From the IMG/VR virus record IMGVR_UViG_3300028800_000655, positions 1 to 34,336 of that record: 34,336 bases of DNA. One strand, given 5' to 3'. This DNA is from a virus. The notes beneath the pieces were generated by a model that was given only the letters and a program-made list of their open reading frames with translations, did no database searches and was not told where the DNA came from. How positions within the stretch are numbered: position 1 is the first letter of the stretch; each line of letters opens with the position of its first letter. Position numbers and translations under genes: made by a program. Below, one piece after another: positions 7,528 through 15,507 of this stretch.

Positions 7528-10500
7528 TTACTGCGTTGCGTAGTTAAAGTTGAACAAAACCAACTTACCTGAGATTGCTGCATTCGTCAGGGTTCCCAGC
7601 CCTGGAGTTATATACACTCCGAAAGTGTTGGAATTGGGAGCAACCAACCAGTCGAGCGATGGGCTTCCAATTGCAGCGTAGTTGCTCAGAATAAAACCGG
7701 CAAAATAGCTGTTTGTATAATTTGCCGAGGTGAATGGGAGACTGATATTAACCTGATTTGTATCTGCTGTGGCTGGATATACTATCCGACCATTGACGTA
7801 AACGATATTCCCCACCTTCGTGTAATAAGCATCAGCGGTGGAGAATGTTAGATTGCCGCCGCTCTGGTCGGTCGGTTTCCAGTAAGTACCAGTCGGGGCT
7901 TGCCCGATAATTGGTCCAGTCGCCGTCAGACCGCCAATCAAAGACGCCGTGTTAGCTCCTGAGCGCGTCAAGCAGACATCTTGCGTGAGTTCGTTATCTC
8001 CTAGCACTAGCCCCGGAAGTCCCGTGGAGCAAGCGTTGATAGCAAACCCTGCACCATTTCCGCTGCCCGTCATCTGATCGTTATTGTAGATGGTTTGCAT
8101 GTTGGTGCTTGAGTTAAACGCGCCAAAGGACGACCCCGCAGCAAGCAGTGGATACGGCAAGCCTTGTGCGGATTCGCCCACAACGGTGATATTTGGGTCT
8201 GACAGATCAGCTTGCGCCGATAAGGTCACTTGATATGCAGGACTGCCAGCCGCTCCGGCCACGGTACTAGAGTAAGAAATTGTGTCCGAAACCTGCATGT
8301 AAATCGTAAACTTCTGCGATCCGCCTGGCTGCAAACTGATTGTGGATAAAGATATAGGCCCAGTGCTGATTGAACCCCATCGGCTGCTTATTAAAGCGGC
8401 GTTGACAGTTCCGGCGCTTCCTGCCGTAGTGACGGTCACAGACAAACTCGCGGTATAGTATCCCGCAACGGAGGCGGTGAAATAAACAGTGGGTGCTTGA
8501 GTGGAGGTCAACGGCATTGTCGTGAAGTTCCCAACCCCCGCATTGACCGCGTAGGCTCCGCCACTCGCACCTGTTACCGTAGTAGCATATTTCAGCGCGA
8601 TACCGGCGGAAAGATGGATCGGCCTATAAGTGGTCGAGTCGGTAATAGATGCTTGGCTATACCCGCCAAGTTGATCCAGAGACACCGCCGAAGTGGAGGA
8701 GGCCGTACATCCGGTGCAGCTTAGAGTGCCCGTCACGCTGTCTGTTGTTCCGGTCCCTGCTGAAGTGGCGTAAAGGCTCATCGACGGTAGATAATAGCCC
8801 TCCACCGCCGTTGTGTAAAAGGTGGTTGCAGAAATACTGGAAGTTTGCGCCGTTTGGATCGTGCCGGGGTAGCTTGCGTTTCCAGCAGAGAGATAGAATG
8901 GACTACCTGAAGAAATCTTGACATCATTGTTCTTGAAAACCGCGTCAATAGAACTCAGGGATGCGGATGGCTCAAACACGAATCCATAAGCAGACCCGCT
9001 AGCATTGGCTTGTCGAAGGGTATTTCCGGTGAAACTTAGATCGCTCGTCCATTTATTCGTCCCCACCGTTTCTGACGACCCGTAAATAGTTACCAGGCCA
9101 CCTCCGTTCCCATTTACGTTGGTGAACGAGTTATTGGACACGGTGAGGTGTTTCCCGCTGAAAATGGTCAGAGCACCCCCGCCATAGTTCAGGCTCCCAA
9201 ATGATGCGTTGTTGCTGAGAATCATGTCCGACTCCCCTAAGTCGGCAGGGTCTTGATTGCCAAGTGTGAATGCCGCGTGCGGCCCGCGTGGCTCATAAAC
9301 ATTGTTCCCCGTGACTAATACGTCACGGGTAGGGTAGTCAATATCATCTGTTCCAACTTGGACCGATCCGTTTAGCGAATAGGCAATCGTGTTGTTTGCT
9401 ATGGTGATATTTTTACCACGGCAGCAGTTAATCGAGGGGATTGGACTCGATTGAACGGTGTTCGCCCCGTGCCAGAAACTCGTATTTCCGATAATCTCAA
9501 CTCCGCACCCCTTCGCTTCATAAACATCGATTCGAGCGATGTTGCGGAAACTGTTGAAATTGATATGCCCATTCGAGCACAATCCTGATCCGTTTGAATG
9601 AGTAATGCCATACTGCCCAATTCCAGACCCGGCGATATTTTCTATCCGGTTGTTTTGCAGCCAGAATCCATCCACGCTACCAGATAAATCAGCGTTGACA
9701 GTAGCCCCCAGGCTCACGTCATGAATATAGTTCTTTTCAATCCTCAGATTTTTGATCGTAGTGCCGGAGCCGTTGATAATGCCCGCATGTTGATCCGCAG
9801 TCACGCCATCTCCGGCGATCTCCAAACCTGAGAAGGTCAGATTAGTGACGGTGGTGTAAAGCGGAGTTCCTGTACCGTTGTCGCCATAAATCACACCAAT
9901 CTGATGCCCGGAAGTGCCTACAAGGCATATTTTAGGAAGTCCGATACCACTCAAAGTAAAGTTGTTTGCGTTGGCTATCCAGAGCCGGTCACTCACGATA
10001 TAGCAAGAATTAGGACGGCCTGTGATCGAGAGCGTGCCGGAGGTTACACCCCCCGTTGTCATAGCCGCGATGCCCGCGTTGATGGCCGATGTGTCGTCGT
10101 CGCCAATTACAAACTCCGAGGTCGCCAGCGTCATCGTGGCAGTGGTGTTTAGGGTCGCCGTCGTGCTGGACTGAACAGAGAGAATGGTCGTGGCCAGCGA
10201 AACCCCCGCTGCACCCGCGCCAGATACCCAAATGTTTTTTCCTACGTCGGCAGACGTGAAATTCATGGATACCGAAGTAATGCTTGTTCCCGACACTGCT
10301 CCGTCATAGGTATTCCCGTACACAGTTGCAGTCGTCGAGGACACGGGAAAGGTGTTGGCTTTCTCACTGAGGAATGCATATGTGCAGGAACTCGTACATG
10401 TATTACCATAGCTGTCGAGTAGCTTGACAATCGCAGCACGGAAATTAAGTCCAAGAGCACCCACGTTGGCAATGACAATATCCATTCCTGCCATATTGGG

Positions 10501-11646
10501 ACTACTAGCCGTAAAGAAGGAACTCGCCTGAATTGTGTTGCTTGCAAGGATTTGATAAGATGCGCCGGTGACGGCAGTTCCCGCGACGACAGACAAGATG
10601 ATATGAGTGCTATCAGGTACGGATACGATCTGCGCATACAGCGTTGCACCTGCTGAACCGGCTCCCGGAACAGTCACAAACTGCGCGACATAGGCCTGCG
10701 TGAAGTTGGCAGAGGTAGAGGTAAGCGTTGCCGAGCCAAGCGTCATCGCCCCATCTGTGCGAGATATGAAATAACTAGCCCCCGTCATCGTCATCTGCGG
10801 GGCAGCGGTAAGAGTTATATTGTGTGCGTTAAGCACACTGGCAATCGTCGTAGTAAGGTTGACCCCTGCTGTTCCTGCTCCGAACACTTTAATTGTCAGG
10901 CCCACGTAACCGGACGTGAAATTGGCTGCCGGAGAATACAGAATGTTGGATGACGCCGTAGTGTTTCCATCAACCCCTTCCGGCAAGGGCGCAAATGTAA
11001 CCCCTGTGCCTGCGTAAGTGCTGTAGCCATTATTCCGGCCAGTGCCCTTTGCGCCAAAACATGTAGCCACATCTGGATGTTGTTTATCGCATACAGCGCC
11101 ACCAAGTGTACTCCAAGCAGAACCACTATATACTCTCACTACATTGCCAGTAACATTATAATAAAGAGCACCCTGATTTGTAGCTACTTTGATCTCAGAG
11201 TCAGCATAAGCTTTTGGTAAATTTGTAGCTGGAATAGTAAGATTAGCTAATGTTGATGTTATGACGGCGGATATGTTTTGTGTGCTCCCAGTTGTAGCTT
11301 GATTTACAGTTATAGATGGAGAAGTAGCATCTGGAGTTACTTGATACTGCCAATATGATCCAGCAGGTGCAATGGACGTAGAAGTAGGAATAGACCATGT
11401 ACCATAGGCTGCGCCATTAAGTTGGACTACCTGCGGAGTAAGATATTGAGCTGGTAGTTGAGCACCATTCCAATAATACGGCCCTGGAACTCCGGGTGCA
11501 GGCTGAAAAACGTAACTGATTGTCCCATTATTCCAAGTCTGTCCACTTGGATCAGTTACAGTAGCAGATACAGTCGTAGACTGAGCAAGGCAAATAGGTA
11601 GCGATAACGCCAGAAATGCGAAGAAAATCGAGATATTCTTTTTCAT
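7528..11646 (-). CDS. large tail spike/fibre with signal peptide and beta-helix
   Basis: The start at ATG 11646 has AGAGGA upstream; the frame is open 48 bp further but without a ribosome binding site. The product has 1372 residues. Residues 1-22 form a classical Sec signal peptide (MKKN, a Phe/Leu/Ala-rich core, then an LAQ/ST cleavage region). An Ig-like domain (about 25-130) follows, then a linker. Residues 228-515 hold four beta-rich repeats, and a parallel beta-helix from about 516 (DDDTSAINAGI) to about 890 has many N-N-x-F/T turns, as in pectate-lyase-like spikes. Further beta domains and a C-terminal GTYWKPTDQSGG...KVGNIVYVNGRI head region follow. It should bind or degrade host surface polysaccharide. 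A Sec signal is unusual for a virion protein. Base composition changes near 11,090. Confidence 0.82.
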   Translation of the reverse strand: MKKNISIFFAFLALSLPICLAQSTTVSATVTDPSGQTWNNGTISYVFQPAPGVPGPYYWNGAQLPAQYLTPQVVQLNGAAYGTWSIPTSTSIAPAGSYWQYQVTPDATSPSITVNQATTGSTQNISAVITSTLANLTIPATNLPKAYADSEIKVATNQGALYYNVTGNVVRVYSGSAWSTLGGAVCDKQHPDVATCFGAKGTGRNNGYSTYAGTGVTFAPLPEGVDGNTTASSNILYSPAANFTSGYVGLTIKVFGAGTAGVNLTTTIASVLNAHNITLTAAPQMTMTGASYFISRTDGAMTLGSATLTSTSANFTQAYVAQFVTVPGAGSAGATLYAQIVSVPDSTHIILSVVAGTAVTGASYQILASNTIQASSFFTASSPNMAGMDIVIANVGALGLNFRAAIVKLLDSYGNTCTSSCTYAFLSEKANTFPVSSTTATVYGNTYDGAVSGTSITSVSMNFTSADVGKNIWVSGAGAAGVSLATTILSVQSSTTATLNTTATMTLATSEFVIGDDDTSAINAGIAAMTTGGVTSGTLSITGRPNSCYIVSDRLWIANANNFTLSGIGLPKICLVGTSGHQIGVIYGDNGTGTPLYTTVTNLTFSGLEIAGDGVTADQHAGIINGSGTTIKNLRIEKNYIHDVSLGATVNADLSGSVDGFWLQNNRIENIAGSGIGQYGITHSNGSGLCSNGHINFNSFRNIARIDVYEAKGCGVEIIGNTSFWHGANTVQSSPIPSINCCRGKNITIANNTIAYSLNGSVQVGTDDIDYPTRDVLVTGNNVYEPRGPHAAFTLGNQDPADLGESDMILSNNASFGSLNYGGGALTIFSGKHLTVSNNSFTNVNGNGGGLVTIYGSSETVGTNKWTSDLSFTGNTLRQANASGSAYGFVFEPSASLSSIDAVFKNNDVKISSGSPFYLSAGNASYPGTIQTAQTSSISATTFYTTAVEGYYLPSMSLYATSAGTGTTDSVTGTLSCTGCTASSTSAVSLDQLGGYSQASITDSTTYRPIHLSAGIALKYATTVTGASGGAYAVNAGVGNFTTMPLTSTQAPTVYFTASVAGYYTASLSVTVTTAGSAGTVNAALISSRWGSISTGPISLSTISLQPGGSQKFTIYMQVSDTISYSSTVAGAAGSPAYQVTLSAQADLSDPNITVVGESAQGLPYPLLAAGSSFGAFNSSTNMQTIYNNDQMTGSGNGAGFAINACSTGLPGLVLGDNELTQDVCLTRSGANTASLIGGLTATGPIIGQAPTGTYWKPTDQSGGNLTFSTADAYYTKVGNIVYVNGRIVYPATADTNQVNISLPFTSANYTNSYFAGFILSNYAAIGSPSLDWLVAPNSNTFGVYITPGLGTLTNAAISGKLVLFNFNYATQ
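10102..10962 (-). repeat. four tandem ~70-residue beta repeats within the tail spike
   Basis: Residues 228-515 of the spike contain four related units of about 68-77 residues. Each has an ANFTSAYVG/ADVGK-type turn, a V-x-GAG-(T/S/A)-AG-(V/A)-(N/T/S)-L core, then TTI-(A/L)-SV-x5-ATL-type strands. Units 1, 2 and 4 are clear; unit 3 (from about residue 368) is more diverged. Such FTSADVGK-x-I-x-V-x-GAGAAG units are common stalk modules in phage spikes. Confidence 0.7.
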
Positions 11647-11752: not shown

Positions 11753-12223
11753 TCAGCCTCTGCAACCTGTTCTTAACGACCATAAAATACCATCTTCCTC
11801 TGAGCCATAAAAATCAGGCACATACTGAATTGGCTTAAAATTATTCTTACTTAATAATTTTATAACTGCTGTGTTATCTGTCCTAGTATGTGCTTGTATT
11901 ACAGTAGCTATATCAAAAGCATAGCTTAACCTATCATCAAGAAGTAGCTGTCCCAAGCCTTGTTTTTGATACTCTGGCAACACAGCACTTGAGTCTAAAT
12001 ACGCTATTTGAGCGTGACTTGACCAGCACATAACAGCAGCGGCGATAGGTCTGTTCTCCAACTCATACCAAACCACCAACCAAGACTTATGTTTGTCGAA
12101 GAACGCTGTCCATTCTTCTTCCTGCATTTTATCTGTATCAAAGCATATAGCATCTATAGTCGCTAACATCTTAGGCAAACTTGAATCGTATTCTGTAGCT
12201 GTATGCTTAATTACATTCATCAT
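11753..12223 (-). CDS. GNAT-fold N-acetyltransferase
   Basis: The 156-residue protein shows the GNAT core: a strand with WLVVWYELENRPIAAAVMCW, then AQIAYLDSSAVLPEYQKQGLGQLLLDDRLSYAF. Within this, the Q-x-x-G-x-G acetyl-CoA pyrophosphate loop (QKQGLG, about residues 86-91) and the preceding V-x-P strand are intact. The C-terminal strands end with a NNFKPIQYVPDFYG motif usual in GNATs. The acceptor is unknown. The gene overlaps the ATP-grasp gene by four bases (ATGA), so the two are translationally coupled and likely act on the same substrate. It is followed by the tail spike, which makes virion or peptide modification an attractive but unproven role. Confidence 0.82.
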   Translation of the reverse strand: MMNVIKHTATEYDSSLPKMLATIDAICFDTDKMQEEEWTAFFDKHKSWLVVWYELENRPIAAAVMCWSSHAQIAYLDSSAVLPEYQKQGLGQLLLDDRLSYAFDIATVIQAHTRTDNTAVIKLLSKNNFKPIQYVPDFYGSEEDGILWSLRTGCRG

Positions 12224-13536
12224 AGCACCGACTCCGGTTTTGGTATCTTATTAGCGAATTTGATTCCATTCTTTTCTGCTTCTTGGATTGACTTGAGCAA
12301 GTCTACGAAGCCTGCGGTCTTGGCGAATATGGGTAGATGTTTCATCAACTCTAACTTCTCTTTAATATCATCAATAGATTCCGCTACTGAATCCCCAACT
12401 CCAAGTAAGACTCCAACTTCATCCTTCTTACTCGGCATGAAGTGATATATGCCGTCAATTACGCAGTAGTGATAAGGTTTGAACCATTGCTTGACCTTCT
12501 TAGGTATCTCAAGCACCTTCCACTCTTCTGCGATAGCTGGATTATCTGAGGAGGCTTCGTAGTGGATAGTGGCCTCCGCAGCAAATGGCCAGCCGAACTT
12601 TGGCTCGATTACTTTACCATTTGAGCCTTGCCATACTACATCAGCTATATTTAAGCAAGTCTCCCACTGATGCTCTCCGGTTTGCCCCGGATGCCTAGCG
12701 GTCGGGTCGATAAAATAGGGTACACCCTTACTTACACGTATCTCAGTCGCCCACCAGTTTCGATACCCATATTCCTCTAAAATTGGAGCCATCTTCTGAT
12801 TTACAAACAGAATCTCCTCCGGCAAATCCTTATCCTGAAGCAGCGAGCCTAAGTACAACTCATTCTTTTTCTCATAGCCCTGGAAAGACTTGGAGGGATA
12901 TGCCCCATTAATACACCACCCATCATACCCACACTCCATGTCTGTTTCGATTTCATCCTGTACTACGAAGGTAACCTGACTTCTCGCGCCACCGAAGATT
13001 ACTGCGAGGCTTTCAAGCCTACGCTCGCTAAGAGCATAATTAATATGATACCAAGTCTCCATATTCTCACGGTATCTATTGATCTTTACCCATTTCTTTT
13101 CCACGGTCTTGAGATACTCGGAGAGTTCTTTTAGCCCGTGAAGCACTTTAGAGGGCACAGTAGGAAGTCCTACTTCTTTCAACACCTCAATAAAATGATC
13201 CCTATAAAGCTCAAGCTCATCCGCACCCATTGACCCCCATACGGATTTACCTATGCTCCTGAGATATCGTTGAAGCCCCCCATATCCAATATCAGGAAAT
13301 ATGAATAAATCAATCTTATCAAATATCTCAGGATCGAAGAAATCATAAATCCGCTCAACTTTAGTCAGCCCACTCCCCGTCATAGTATCCGCAAGGGTTT
13401 TATACTCCCGCTCTGTAGGAGCGTAGTAGTACACTTTCTTATATGTTTCTGCTAATTTCTCAGACAAAGCAGTAAAGGTGCCATAGTCTATGACACACGC
13501 TACAACATCCTCTACTGCTTTATTTGAGGTTTTCAT
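12220..13536 (-). CDS. ATP-grasp ligase, PurD/amidoligase-like
   Basis: The start at ATG 13536 has GGAGAAG upstream and lies one base after the stop of the 38-aa gene; the frame is open to a GTG at 13572. The 438-residue product has a Rossmann-like N-terminus (VVACVIDYGTFTALSEKLAE, then IDLFIFPDIGYGGLQRYLRS). An ATP-grasp body follows: a GKSVWGSMGADELE entry, a VKINRYRENMETW strand with a candidate ATP-binding Lys, a QDEIETDMECGYDGWCING stretch, and WWATEIRVSKGVPYFIDPTARHPG with the acidic and D-P-T-x-R metal-binding end. Family members join a carboxylate to an amine using ATP, as in PurD and peptide amidoligases. No purine pathway genes are nearby, so a peptide or protein substrate is more likely than purine synthesis. 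Confidence 0.75.
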   Translation of the reverse strand: MKTSNKAVEDVVACVIDYGTFTALSEKLAETYKKVYYYAPTEREYKTLADTMTGSGLTKVERIYDFFDPEIFDKIDLFIFPDIGYGGLQRYLRSIGKSVWGSMGADELELYRDHFIEVLKEVGLPTVPSKVLHGLKELSEYLKTVEKKWVKINRYRENMETWYHINYALSERRLESLAVIFGGARSQVTFVVQDEIETDMECGYDGWCINGAYPSKSFQGYEKKNELYLGSLLQDKDLPEEILFVNQKMAPILEEYGYRNWWATEIRVSKGVPYFIDPTARHPGQTGEHQWETCLNIADVVWQGSNGKVIEPKFGWPFAAEATIHYEASSDNPAIAEEWKVLEIPKKVKQWFKPYHYCVIDGIYHFMPSKKDEVGVLLGVGDSVAESIDDIKEKLELMKHLPIFAKTAGFVDLLKSIQEAEKNGIKFANKIPKPESVL

Positions 13537-13537
13537 A

Positions 13538-13654
13538 CTAGCACTTCTCCATGCCCTTGCTTTTTTTGCCACTCTTGACCTGGAAGTTGGTTTCTACTGA
13601 ACGAATCTTTGCACGAACTTCATCACGAGTTTTAGCTGCTGCTTGTCCTGACAT
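13538..13654 (-). CDS. 38-aa basic peptide upstream of the ATP-grasp gene
   Basis: ATG 13654 follows AGGAGGCAAC, one of the best ribosome binding sites in the window. Translation ends at TAG 13538-13540, one base before the ATP-grasp start. The peptide opens MSGQAAAKTRDEVRAKIRS and has a Lys/Ser/Gly-rich end finishing in Met-Glu-Lys-Cys. It has no signal peptide or membrane segment. Tight coupling to an ATP-grasp ligase and a GNAT gene makes it a candidate substrate or carrier peptide for them; that is inference from gene order. It could instead be a small structural or regulatory protein. Confidence 0.6.
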   Translation of the reverse strand: MSGQAAAKTRDEVRAKIRSVETNFQVKSGKKSKGMEKC

Positions 13655-13665
13655 GTTGCCTCCTG

Positions 13666-15507
13666 TTAAAAATCTGCATCTGGGTTAAACTGCCGTGGGT
13701 TCCAATTCTTAGGCTTTGCTTGAGTACGACGTGGGCGGTGGGATTTATTCTTAGCCGCTTCTTTCTCTGTGGGGAATATAATATGTGATGCTTGAGTTCC
13801 GAGGCCATAGCTAGGAATATCAGAAAGTAAATCCCTACCTAGCGGCTCTGCTGCTTTGGGATGCTTTGAGTCTCTTCCCGAAGCTTTAACTACATCCTCA
13901 AGTCCCTGCTCCGCCATCCTAGCCTCTGGTGGCATGAATCTACCTACTAAGCTCGACCTATTAGCGCCCCTAATATATCCTGTTATATTCCCCCAAGCTC
14001 CGAGAGTACCTAATAGATATATCGTATTATACACCGAATCAGGATTAGAAGCCGCCTTACTTCCTGTAAGTGCGGAAGCTATACGCCCAGCGGGAGTAGC
14101 TTTGTATCTATTCTCAAGATGTTTTGCCATACCAGCAATCCCACCTTCGTGGTCTTCCCCTACTGTAATGCGGTCAAATTCCACGATAGTAGCCGCTACT
14201 AAGGGAGCCATAAGCCCCCAATTTGCGATAGTACGAGCGAGGCCCAGAGTATCCCCAGAGCGCATCTGATGTAGTAGAAGTCCACGCATAAATGCGCCTT
14301 GCTGAGTTATATACCCTGAATATGCTTTCATACTTCTGAATAGTGGAGATTGCCTCCAAAACGTAGGAGTCTTATCATAAGGATTCAAGAATACCGTATT
14401 ATTCGCCCCATGATAATAAGCCTTGTTTATGTCCTCCGGATGTAATTTATATCCTTGATCTATTACTTTCGCTGGATCAATATTAAGTCGTTTTAGAGCT
14501 TGAATTGCGTACTGAGAATCTCCCTTGCTCAATCTATAGGCTGCTTCCTCAGCTACCAGTTTACCGCCCTGTGCCCCCATAGCAATAGACTGCCTCCGTA
14601 CAGGAGCAAGTCCAGGGATTAGAAAATTCTGATGTATAAACTCCCCTACTCCACCGGGAGCGAATTTGTGTATAACACCATTTTCAAATGCTTGCTTTTC
14701 TCTGAGTGGTGCGATGGTTAATTCTGAAATAGCATTAGAAGCAAGCAAGTTATCAATCTGATGCTCCGGGCCGTAAAGTTGATTCACAGCCTTTAGCATA
14801 TTCGTGTAACCATACTCAGAGGTAAGATTCCCCCCTGCGACCCCTGCGTGGATAACAGCCGCTTTATAAGCAAGAGCCTGTCGAAATGGTTGTACGAATT
14901 TCTCCCACTTACCCTTTATCTTGTAAGGAGAAAGCGGTGTTTGAATACCTTTCTCATCATCGCCACCTGCGCCAGCCATATCTTTTCCGAACTGTGACTT
15001 TCCGCCGTACTTAGGCGCAGCCTCTTGAAACATTACATTGTAATGATCGGATAGAATATCAGCAGTTTGCTGTCCTTGATTATTTATAGTATACCGCAGC
15101 ATATCCTGAATCGCTATCCTATTAGGCCCATATACTTCATCAGAAGCCATTTTAGATGCGTGCTTGGATATTTCCGAAACAGGTACTTTATTCGCCGGGC
15201 CGAGCTTGCCAGTAGGATCGAGTGTAGATATAGCTCCGCGCACACTAGGATGTGCATTGATAGGATTCTTTAGCCCATTAGCAATCTTACTTTCATACTC
15301 GGATTTCTTCGGCACATATTCAGTAACATGGTCATGGTACAATTCCTTCGCATACGGATTAGCCTGCTCAAATGCGCGCTCCGGACTGAATAACCCGCGC
15401 AGTGAAATCTCAGGCGCGACCTCAGCGATCTTAGAAGTAATCTTACTTCCAACATCCTCCAAGCCTTCCGCTGCGATTTTCCCTATAGCTTCGCTAAATC
15501 CGCCCAT
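13666..15507 (-). CDS. internal virion (ejection) protein, 613 aa
   Basis: The product starts at ATG 15507 behind AGGTAA, seven bases after the upstream gene. It is Ala/Gly/Lys rich with long helices. Two hydrophobic segments occur near residues 427-448 (ARTIANWGLMAPLVAATIV) and 490-515 (YNTIYLLGTLGAWGNITGYI), and the tail (about 580-613) is basic and Pro/Asn rich. Sequential large helical proteins encoded distal to the tail adaptor genes are the usual arrangement of podovirus internal core/ejection proteins, which leave the capsid with the DNA and cross the cell envelope. No lysozyme or transglycosylase motif is visible. The specific family is not recognised. Confidence 0.6.
   Translation of the reverse strand: MGGFSEAIGKIAAEGLEDVGSKITSKIAEVAPEISLRGLFSPERAFEQANPYAKELYHDHVTEYVPKKSEYESKIANGLKNPINAHPSVRGAISTLDPTGKLGPANKVPVSEISKHASKMASDEVYGPNRIAIQDMLRYTINNQGQQTADILSDHYNVMFQEAAPKYGGKSQFGKDMAGAGGDDEKGIQTPLSPYKIKGKWEKFVQPFRQALAYKAAVIHAGVAGGNLTSEYGYTNMLKAVNQLYGPEHQIDNLLASNAISELTIAPLREKQAFENGVIHKFAPGGVGEFIHQNFLIPGLAPVRRQSIAMGAQGGKLVAEEAAYRLSKGDSQYAIQALKRLNIDPAKVIDQGYKLHPEDINKAYYHGANNTVFLNPYDKTPTFWRQSPLFRSMKAYSGYITQQGAFMRGLLLHQMRSGDTLGLARTIANWGLMAPLVAATIVEFDRITVGEDHEGGIAGMAKHLENRYKATPAGRIASALTGSKAASNPDSVYNTIYLLGTLGAWGNITGYIRGANRSSLVGRFMPPEARMAEQGLEDVVKASGRDSKHPKAAEPLGRDLLSDIPSYGLGTQASHIIFPTEKEAAKNKSHRPRRTQAKPKNWNPRQFNPDADF

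Follow-up and report, generated by a model that had tools for sequence, protein, structure and literature searches.

The window analyzed here is a 34.3-kb virus record, taken as a whole. It encodes an SU10-like portal, a phage capsid protein and a block of late genes on the minus strand, and belongs to an uncultured short-tailed phage. The genes of interest lie in the late block and are listed in the order in which they would be transcribed:

13666 to 15507, minus strand: putative internal virion (ejection) protein, 613 aa, directly 5' of the peptide gene, with orthologues at 35-48% identity; the ejection role is assigned from position
13538 to 13654, minus strand: basic peptide, 38 aa, MSGQAAAKTRDEVRAKIRSVETNFQVKSGKKSKGMEKC; open reading frame with an AGGAGG site and homologues in the same place
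12220 to 13536, minus strand: AG1, predicted PurD-fold ATP-grasp ligase, 438 aa, phage-specific family, assigned from an AlphaFold model and its structural match
11753 to 12223, minus strand: GNAT acetyltransferase, 156 aa; PF00583, phrog_1249
7528 to 11646, minus strand: tail spike, 1372 aa, directly on the downstream side of the slot discussed below; phrog_32881, pectin-lyase-like, 3.9e-18

An earlier note on this DNA had proposed that the peptide, ligase and GNAT genes form a functional unit. Its coordinates were accurate: the three open reading frames lie upstream of the spike gene, with a gap of 1 nt between peptide and ligase, an overlap of 4 nt between ligase and GNAT, and 106 nt between GNAT and spike. 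The tight coupling had been offered as evidence for the unit, but the late operon had a median gap of 9 nt, with ≤12 nt in 16 of 23 cases. Close spacing is the norm in this operon, and we dropped it as a sign of functional association. Scans for promoters and terminators between positions 11000 and 16000 of the window gave results no better than those from shuffled sequences.

The peptide is as basic and as well placed for translation as had been claimed, with a net charge of +6 and an AGGAGG sequence a few bases 5' of its ATG. Five related records encode homologous peptides at this site (41, 42 and 45 aa), with overall identities of 45-50%. The N-terminal part was conserved (M-x-G-Q, A6, R10, V13, I17, S19, E21 and N23 were common to the peptides), and the Lys-rich basic tail varied. 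Within the first 23 codons, change was greatest at third positions. Because the homologues occupy the same site and the changes fall most often at third positions, we consider the peptide to be a real gene. AlphaFold predicted, with low confidence, a helix at residues 10-27 for the peptide alone. The window peptide was not found in the 23 other virus records that carry AG1. L017 and L019 encode proteins of 80-83 aa 5' of the ligase; these were tried as peptide homologues and rejected (shuffle frequencies of 0.32 and 0.12; no match to the peptide HMM).

The length of AG1 is counted from an ATG; the 450-aa form starting at GTG that had been listed is merely the longest open reading frame. AG1 had no sequence match in Pfam, PHROGs, NCBIfam or the PDB sequences. 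An AlphaFold model built with 18 relatives at 46-64% identity had a pLDDT of 90.9, and it matched PurD (GAR synthetase) over its full length (Foldseek E of 4.8e-18). With VIA-align, 380 residues were superimposed on PurD at 3.6 Å (Z of 27.8, 13% identity). The best 13 structural matches were all PurD (Z of 23-28, 11-14% identity), followed by PurK/PurT (Z of 20-22) and biotin carboxylase (Z of 19-20). When profiles were compared locally, genomic PurD gave a weak but colinear match (E of 0.004). AG1 shares the N, ATP-grasp and C domains of PurD (phosphoribosylamine-glycine ligase; PF01071/PF02843; PDB 2qk4, 2xcl, 1vkz), with the ATP-site lysine and acidic residues at equivalent places. Residues K151, R156, E160, E201, E222, K224, E265, R267, D277 and R281 were invariant in 25 AG1 members, including those only 32% identical; among them, K151, E265 and D277 correspond to the ATP-site lysine and the acidic metal ligands. 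Where PurD has an Asn metal ligand, AG1 has Thr, Ala or Cys, so catalysis by AG1 is likely rather than certain.

The features that mark PurD as an enzyme of purine synthesis were missing. The GGREHA loop of the N domain, the NTGG motif (GPNTGG) and the E-x-N-x-RFGDPE motif were each present in 12 of 12 genomic PurDs and in 0 of 25 AG1 members. Pfam GARS_A did not match AG1, whereas it did match the AG2 proteins described below. Judged from the model, AG1 is an ATP-grasp ligase with a PurD fold; because the substrate motifs are absent, it is predicted not to be a GAR synthetase. The ATP-grasp identity given in the earlier note was therefore confirmed by the fold and by comparing profiles with a relative that matches GARS_A, and not by sequence libraries. 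Its doubts about a metabolic PurD role were well founded in view of the motifs, and a Pfam scan of 34 window proteins indeed turned up none of the purine genes that it reported as absent.

The contigs that carry AG1 comprised 27 of viral origin, which include near-duplicates, and 2 from MAGs. There were no AG1 relatives in 50,697 sequenced phages searched with tblastn, and no homologues of the GNAT or of the 613-aa protein in the same set. Literature searches returned no description of the family. AG1 was located mostly among virion genes, in two layouts. In one, a P22-like portal gene is followed by AG1 and then by a scaffold-like gene and the major capsid protein gene; in the other, genes for large putative ejection proteins are followed by AG1 and then by lysis or tail-fibre genes.

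Several features of these neighborhoods were recorded separately. A protein of 132-170 aa with the motif IHExxEA and a conserved Asp and His is encoded just 5' of the ligase in six records (L006, L007, L008, L012, L020, L029) and is frequent at this position in the portal layout; in many cases its gene runs a few bases into the start of the ligase gene. It had no Pfam or PHROG match. Two AG1 relatives (L015:5632-7299 and L022:5617-7299) have an N-terminal extension of ~120 aa with HAD-like motifs (DFDGVIT, TGRP, DD) and no Pfam match. Glycosyltransferase-2-like genes, an NDP-sugar epimerase gene and a possible GT-B-like gene lie near AG1 in some phages (sugar-gene regions L011:9275-11007, L012:9053-10884 and L025:4166-5918). 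The 1057-aa portal of L008 (2218-5391) appears to have an intein-like interruption at residues 159-287 (PF14890, 9e-4).

A search with TerL identified about 20 close relatives of the window phage, most at 72-85% identity, that a search with the 613-aa protein had not found. Of these, three extend across the slot following the peptide gene, and a peptide search added two more, L089 and L092 (n = 5); G043 and G054, at about 85% TerL identity, do not cover the slot and are outside this count. In all five records, a homologue of the 613-aa protein is followed by a peptide of 41-45 aa and then by a protein of 422-424 aa (partial in L092), which we call AG2. Homologues of the window spike lie downstream of AG2 in all four records that cover that region. 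AG2 matched GARS_A (7e-13 and 1e-14) and also GARS_C, and gave an E of 1e-22 against PurD. The AG2 copies were 74-79% identical to one another, compared with 35-41% for the 613-aa neighbors that were compared.

AG1 and AG2 were only distantly related to each other. BLAST gave nothing useful (best E of 0.33), profile comparison gave 2.5e-7, and an AG2 profile searched against the window matched exactly at AG1 (E of 5.6e-6). Most members of both families have E/D-x-T-x-R at the position of the E-x-N-x-R of PurD, and the PurD substrate motifs were found in 0 of 3 AG2 proteins. No tested record contained both families. Like AG1, AG2 (G044, G049, G050, L089; MW202796.1) follows the peptide or virion-block proteins. 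Among the 50,697 sequenced phages, AG2 had one near full-length relative, in MW202796.1 (27% identity), in addition to weaker PurD-like matches. The MW202796.1 gene (42137-43438; L087:8001-9335) is an unannotated PurD-like ATP-grasp gene directly after virion-block genes. An annotated GNAT gene lies four genes 5' of it, and the region has no recognisable peptide.

On the basis of these sequence comparisons, the slot following the peptide holds one PurD-type ligase, AG1 in the window or AG2 in the five relatives. Because the flanking genes are orthologous and the peptide is always followed by a PurD-type ligase, it appears that the peptide and a ligase persist together while the ligase itself is exchanged. 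The third-position GC content of AG1 (46%) differs from that of the adjacent genes for the 613- and 758-aa proteins (36-37%), which gives mild support to an exchange. That the pairing outlasted the exchange suggests a peptide that depends on, or works for, a PurD-type ligase. It is not proof of function, since the few phages of this clade are related to one another and may simply have inherited the gene order.

Our preferred interpretation, to which we assign a probability of about 0.5, is that AG1 belongs to a phage-specific ATP-grasp family derived from PurD, works as a carboxylate-amine ligase, is linked to the peptide in this clade and acts on a phage target. AG1 would form an acyl-phosphate with ATP and couple it to an amine, the target being a phage product of the same period. 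The peptide would be the best candidate for a substrate or cofactor in the window clade; its N-terminal part could be a recognition element and its Lys-rich tail an acceptor or carrier. The ligase, presumably made late, would then amidate a phage target, possibly the Lys-rich tail of the peptide.

A tentative alternative is that the ligase works on its own as a late enzyme with another target, such as the portal, one of the ejection proteins, or a precursor of glycans or of the cell wall, and that the peptide is a small virion protein and a chance neighbor. Most AG1 phages, and also MW202796.1, have no recognisable peptide, so the ligase does not in general require it. The adjoining genes (for portal, ejection proteins, lysis or glycosyltransferase-like proteins) and the HAD-like extension in two phages are also consistent with such an enzyme. 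However, this alternative does not account for the peptide remaining with a PurD-type ligase in the window clade despite the exchange of the ligase. We regard as unlikely a more specific version of the peptide-linked interpretation, in which the peptide would be a ribosomal substrate, a PurD-type ligase expressed together with the virion genes would recognise its conserved N-terminal part and add amino acids or another acyl group to its Lys-rich tail, the product would be packaged or would act on the host at assembly or entry, and two distant ligase families would be interchangeable. Two further readings of the ligase are improbable: a GAR synthetase that has diverged and boosts purine synthesis, and an inactive structural protein with a PurD fold. 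The fold extends along the full length, and AG2 scores with both GARS_A and GARS_C, but the absence of substrate motifs from both families and the lack of purine genes among the window proteins argue against a GAR synthetase, and invariant K151, E265, D277 and R281 weaken the inactive reading.

The identification of the GNAT in the earlier note was solid (PF00583 at 4.4e-12, 46.7 bits against a cut-off of 20.7; phrog_1249 at 5e-14). The proposed three-gene unit was sustained for the peptide and ligase, which stay paired in the clade through the ligase swap, and we rejected it as regards the GNAT. PF00583 was detected in 0 of 23 other virus records with AG1 and in 0 of 5 same-clade records with peptide and ligase, and no AG1 relative had an adjoining GNAT gene. 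The three-gene order was not conserved, the GNAT being absent from all of these AG1 and same-clade records. Outside the clade, the ligase occurred without its partners in the 23 other AG1 virus records, a situation that the earlier note had named as evidence against its proposal. A GNAT relative, 46% identical, sits between the terminase genes of another phage. The GC content of the GNAT gene (38.4%) is below that of the window (44.9%), which mildly supports a separate gain in the window lineage. The GNAT is specific to the window within its clade and probably not part of the unit; it looks like a separately acquired, independent passenger gene. The simplest reading of the locus is that one PurD-type ligase was exchanged for another beside a conserved peptide and that the GNAT was gained separately. 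A scheme in which the peptide or a virion protein is lengthened by the ligase and capped by the GNAT, recalling the ATP-grasp and GNAT linkage with capping proposed for bacterial R2K ligases (PMC4431377), the ligase-GNAT overlap in the window and the GNAT in the MW202796.1 virion block, is very improbable, because the GNAT is missing from all of these AG1 and same-clade records, the overlap is usual for the operon, and the MW202796.1 GNAT is neither adjacent to the ligase nor recognisably related to the window GNAT by BLAST.

None of the systems compared combines a PurD fold, a position in the virion block and a small basic peptide. PurD itself differs in its low identity to AG1 and in its substrate motifs, and AG1 is a virion-block gene of phages. 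AG2 is similar in setting, but its similarity to AG1 is evident from profiles and not from BLAST. In graspetide systems, including those for microviridins, a precursor peptide is encoded along with ATP-grasp ligases (PMC8939145). In the window and the five related records, likewise, the gene immediately after a small peptide gene encodes an ATP-grasp protein, and the peptide has a conserved N-terminal part and a variable tail; in contrast to graspetides, the window ligase is PurD-type, the window peptide is a candidate substrate, and phages go unmentioned in that survey (PMC8939145). R2K/CDC123 ATP-grasp ligases occur in phages, have a proposed role in protein modification and are occasionally linked to GNATs in bacteria (PMC4431377). 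CDC123-like viral models matched the AG1 model weakly (E of 3e-3 and above), their absence from the list of PDB matches being uninformative, and the GNAT link is not conserved among AG1 records. LUZ24-like phages encode a 291-aa ATP-grasp protein in an early module together with amidoligase and glutamine amidotransferase genes (PMC3890496). The common feature is a phage-encoded ATP-grasp protein beside other ligase-type enzymes, but theirs is early, of a different length and with other partners, and the sequenced phages searched contained no AG1 relatives.

AG1 is a PurD-derived ligase family outside Pfam, PHROGs and NCBIfam that is present among the virion genes of many uncultured phages, and its placement suggests that a covalent modification not yet described takes place as particles are assembled. 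With an exchangeable ligase beside a conserved peptide, the locus offers a compact and testable pair of enzyme and candidate substrate.

Two minor observations concern the tail spike. The window spike and its homologues (L077, L079, L089) have an N terminus that resembles a signal peptide (MKKNISIFFAFLALSLPICLAQ and similar), which is odd for a tail spike. In some relatives, there are two spike-like genes in tandem.
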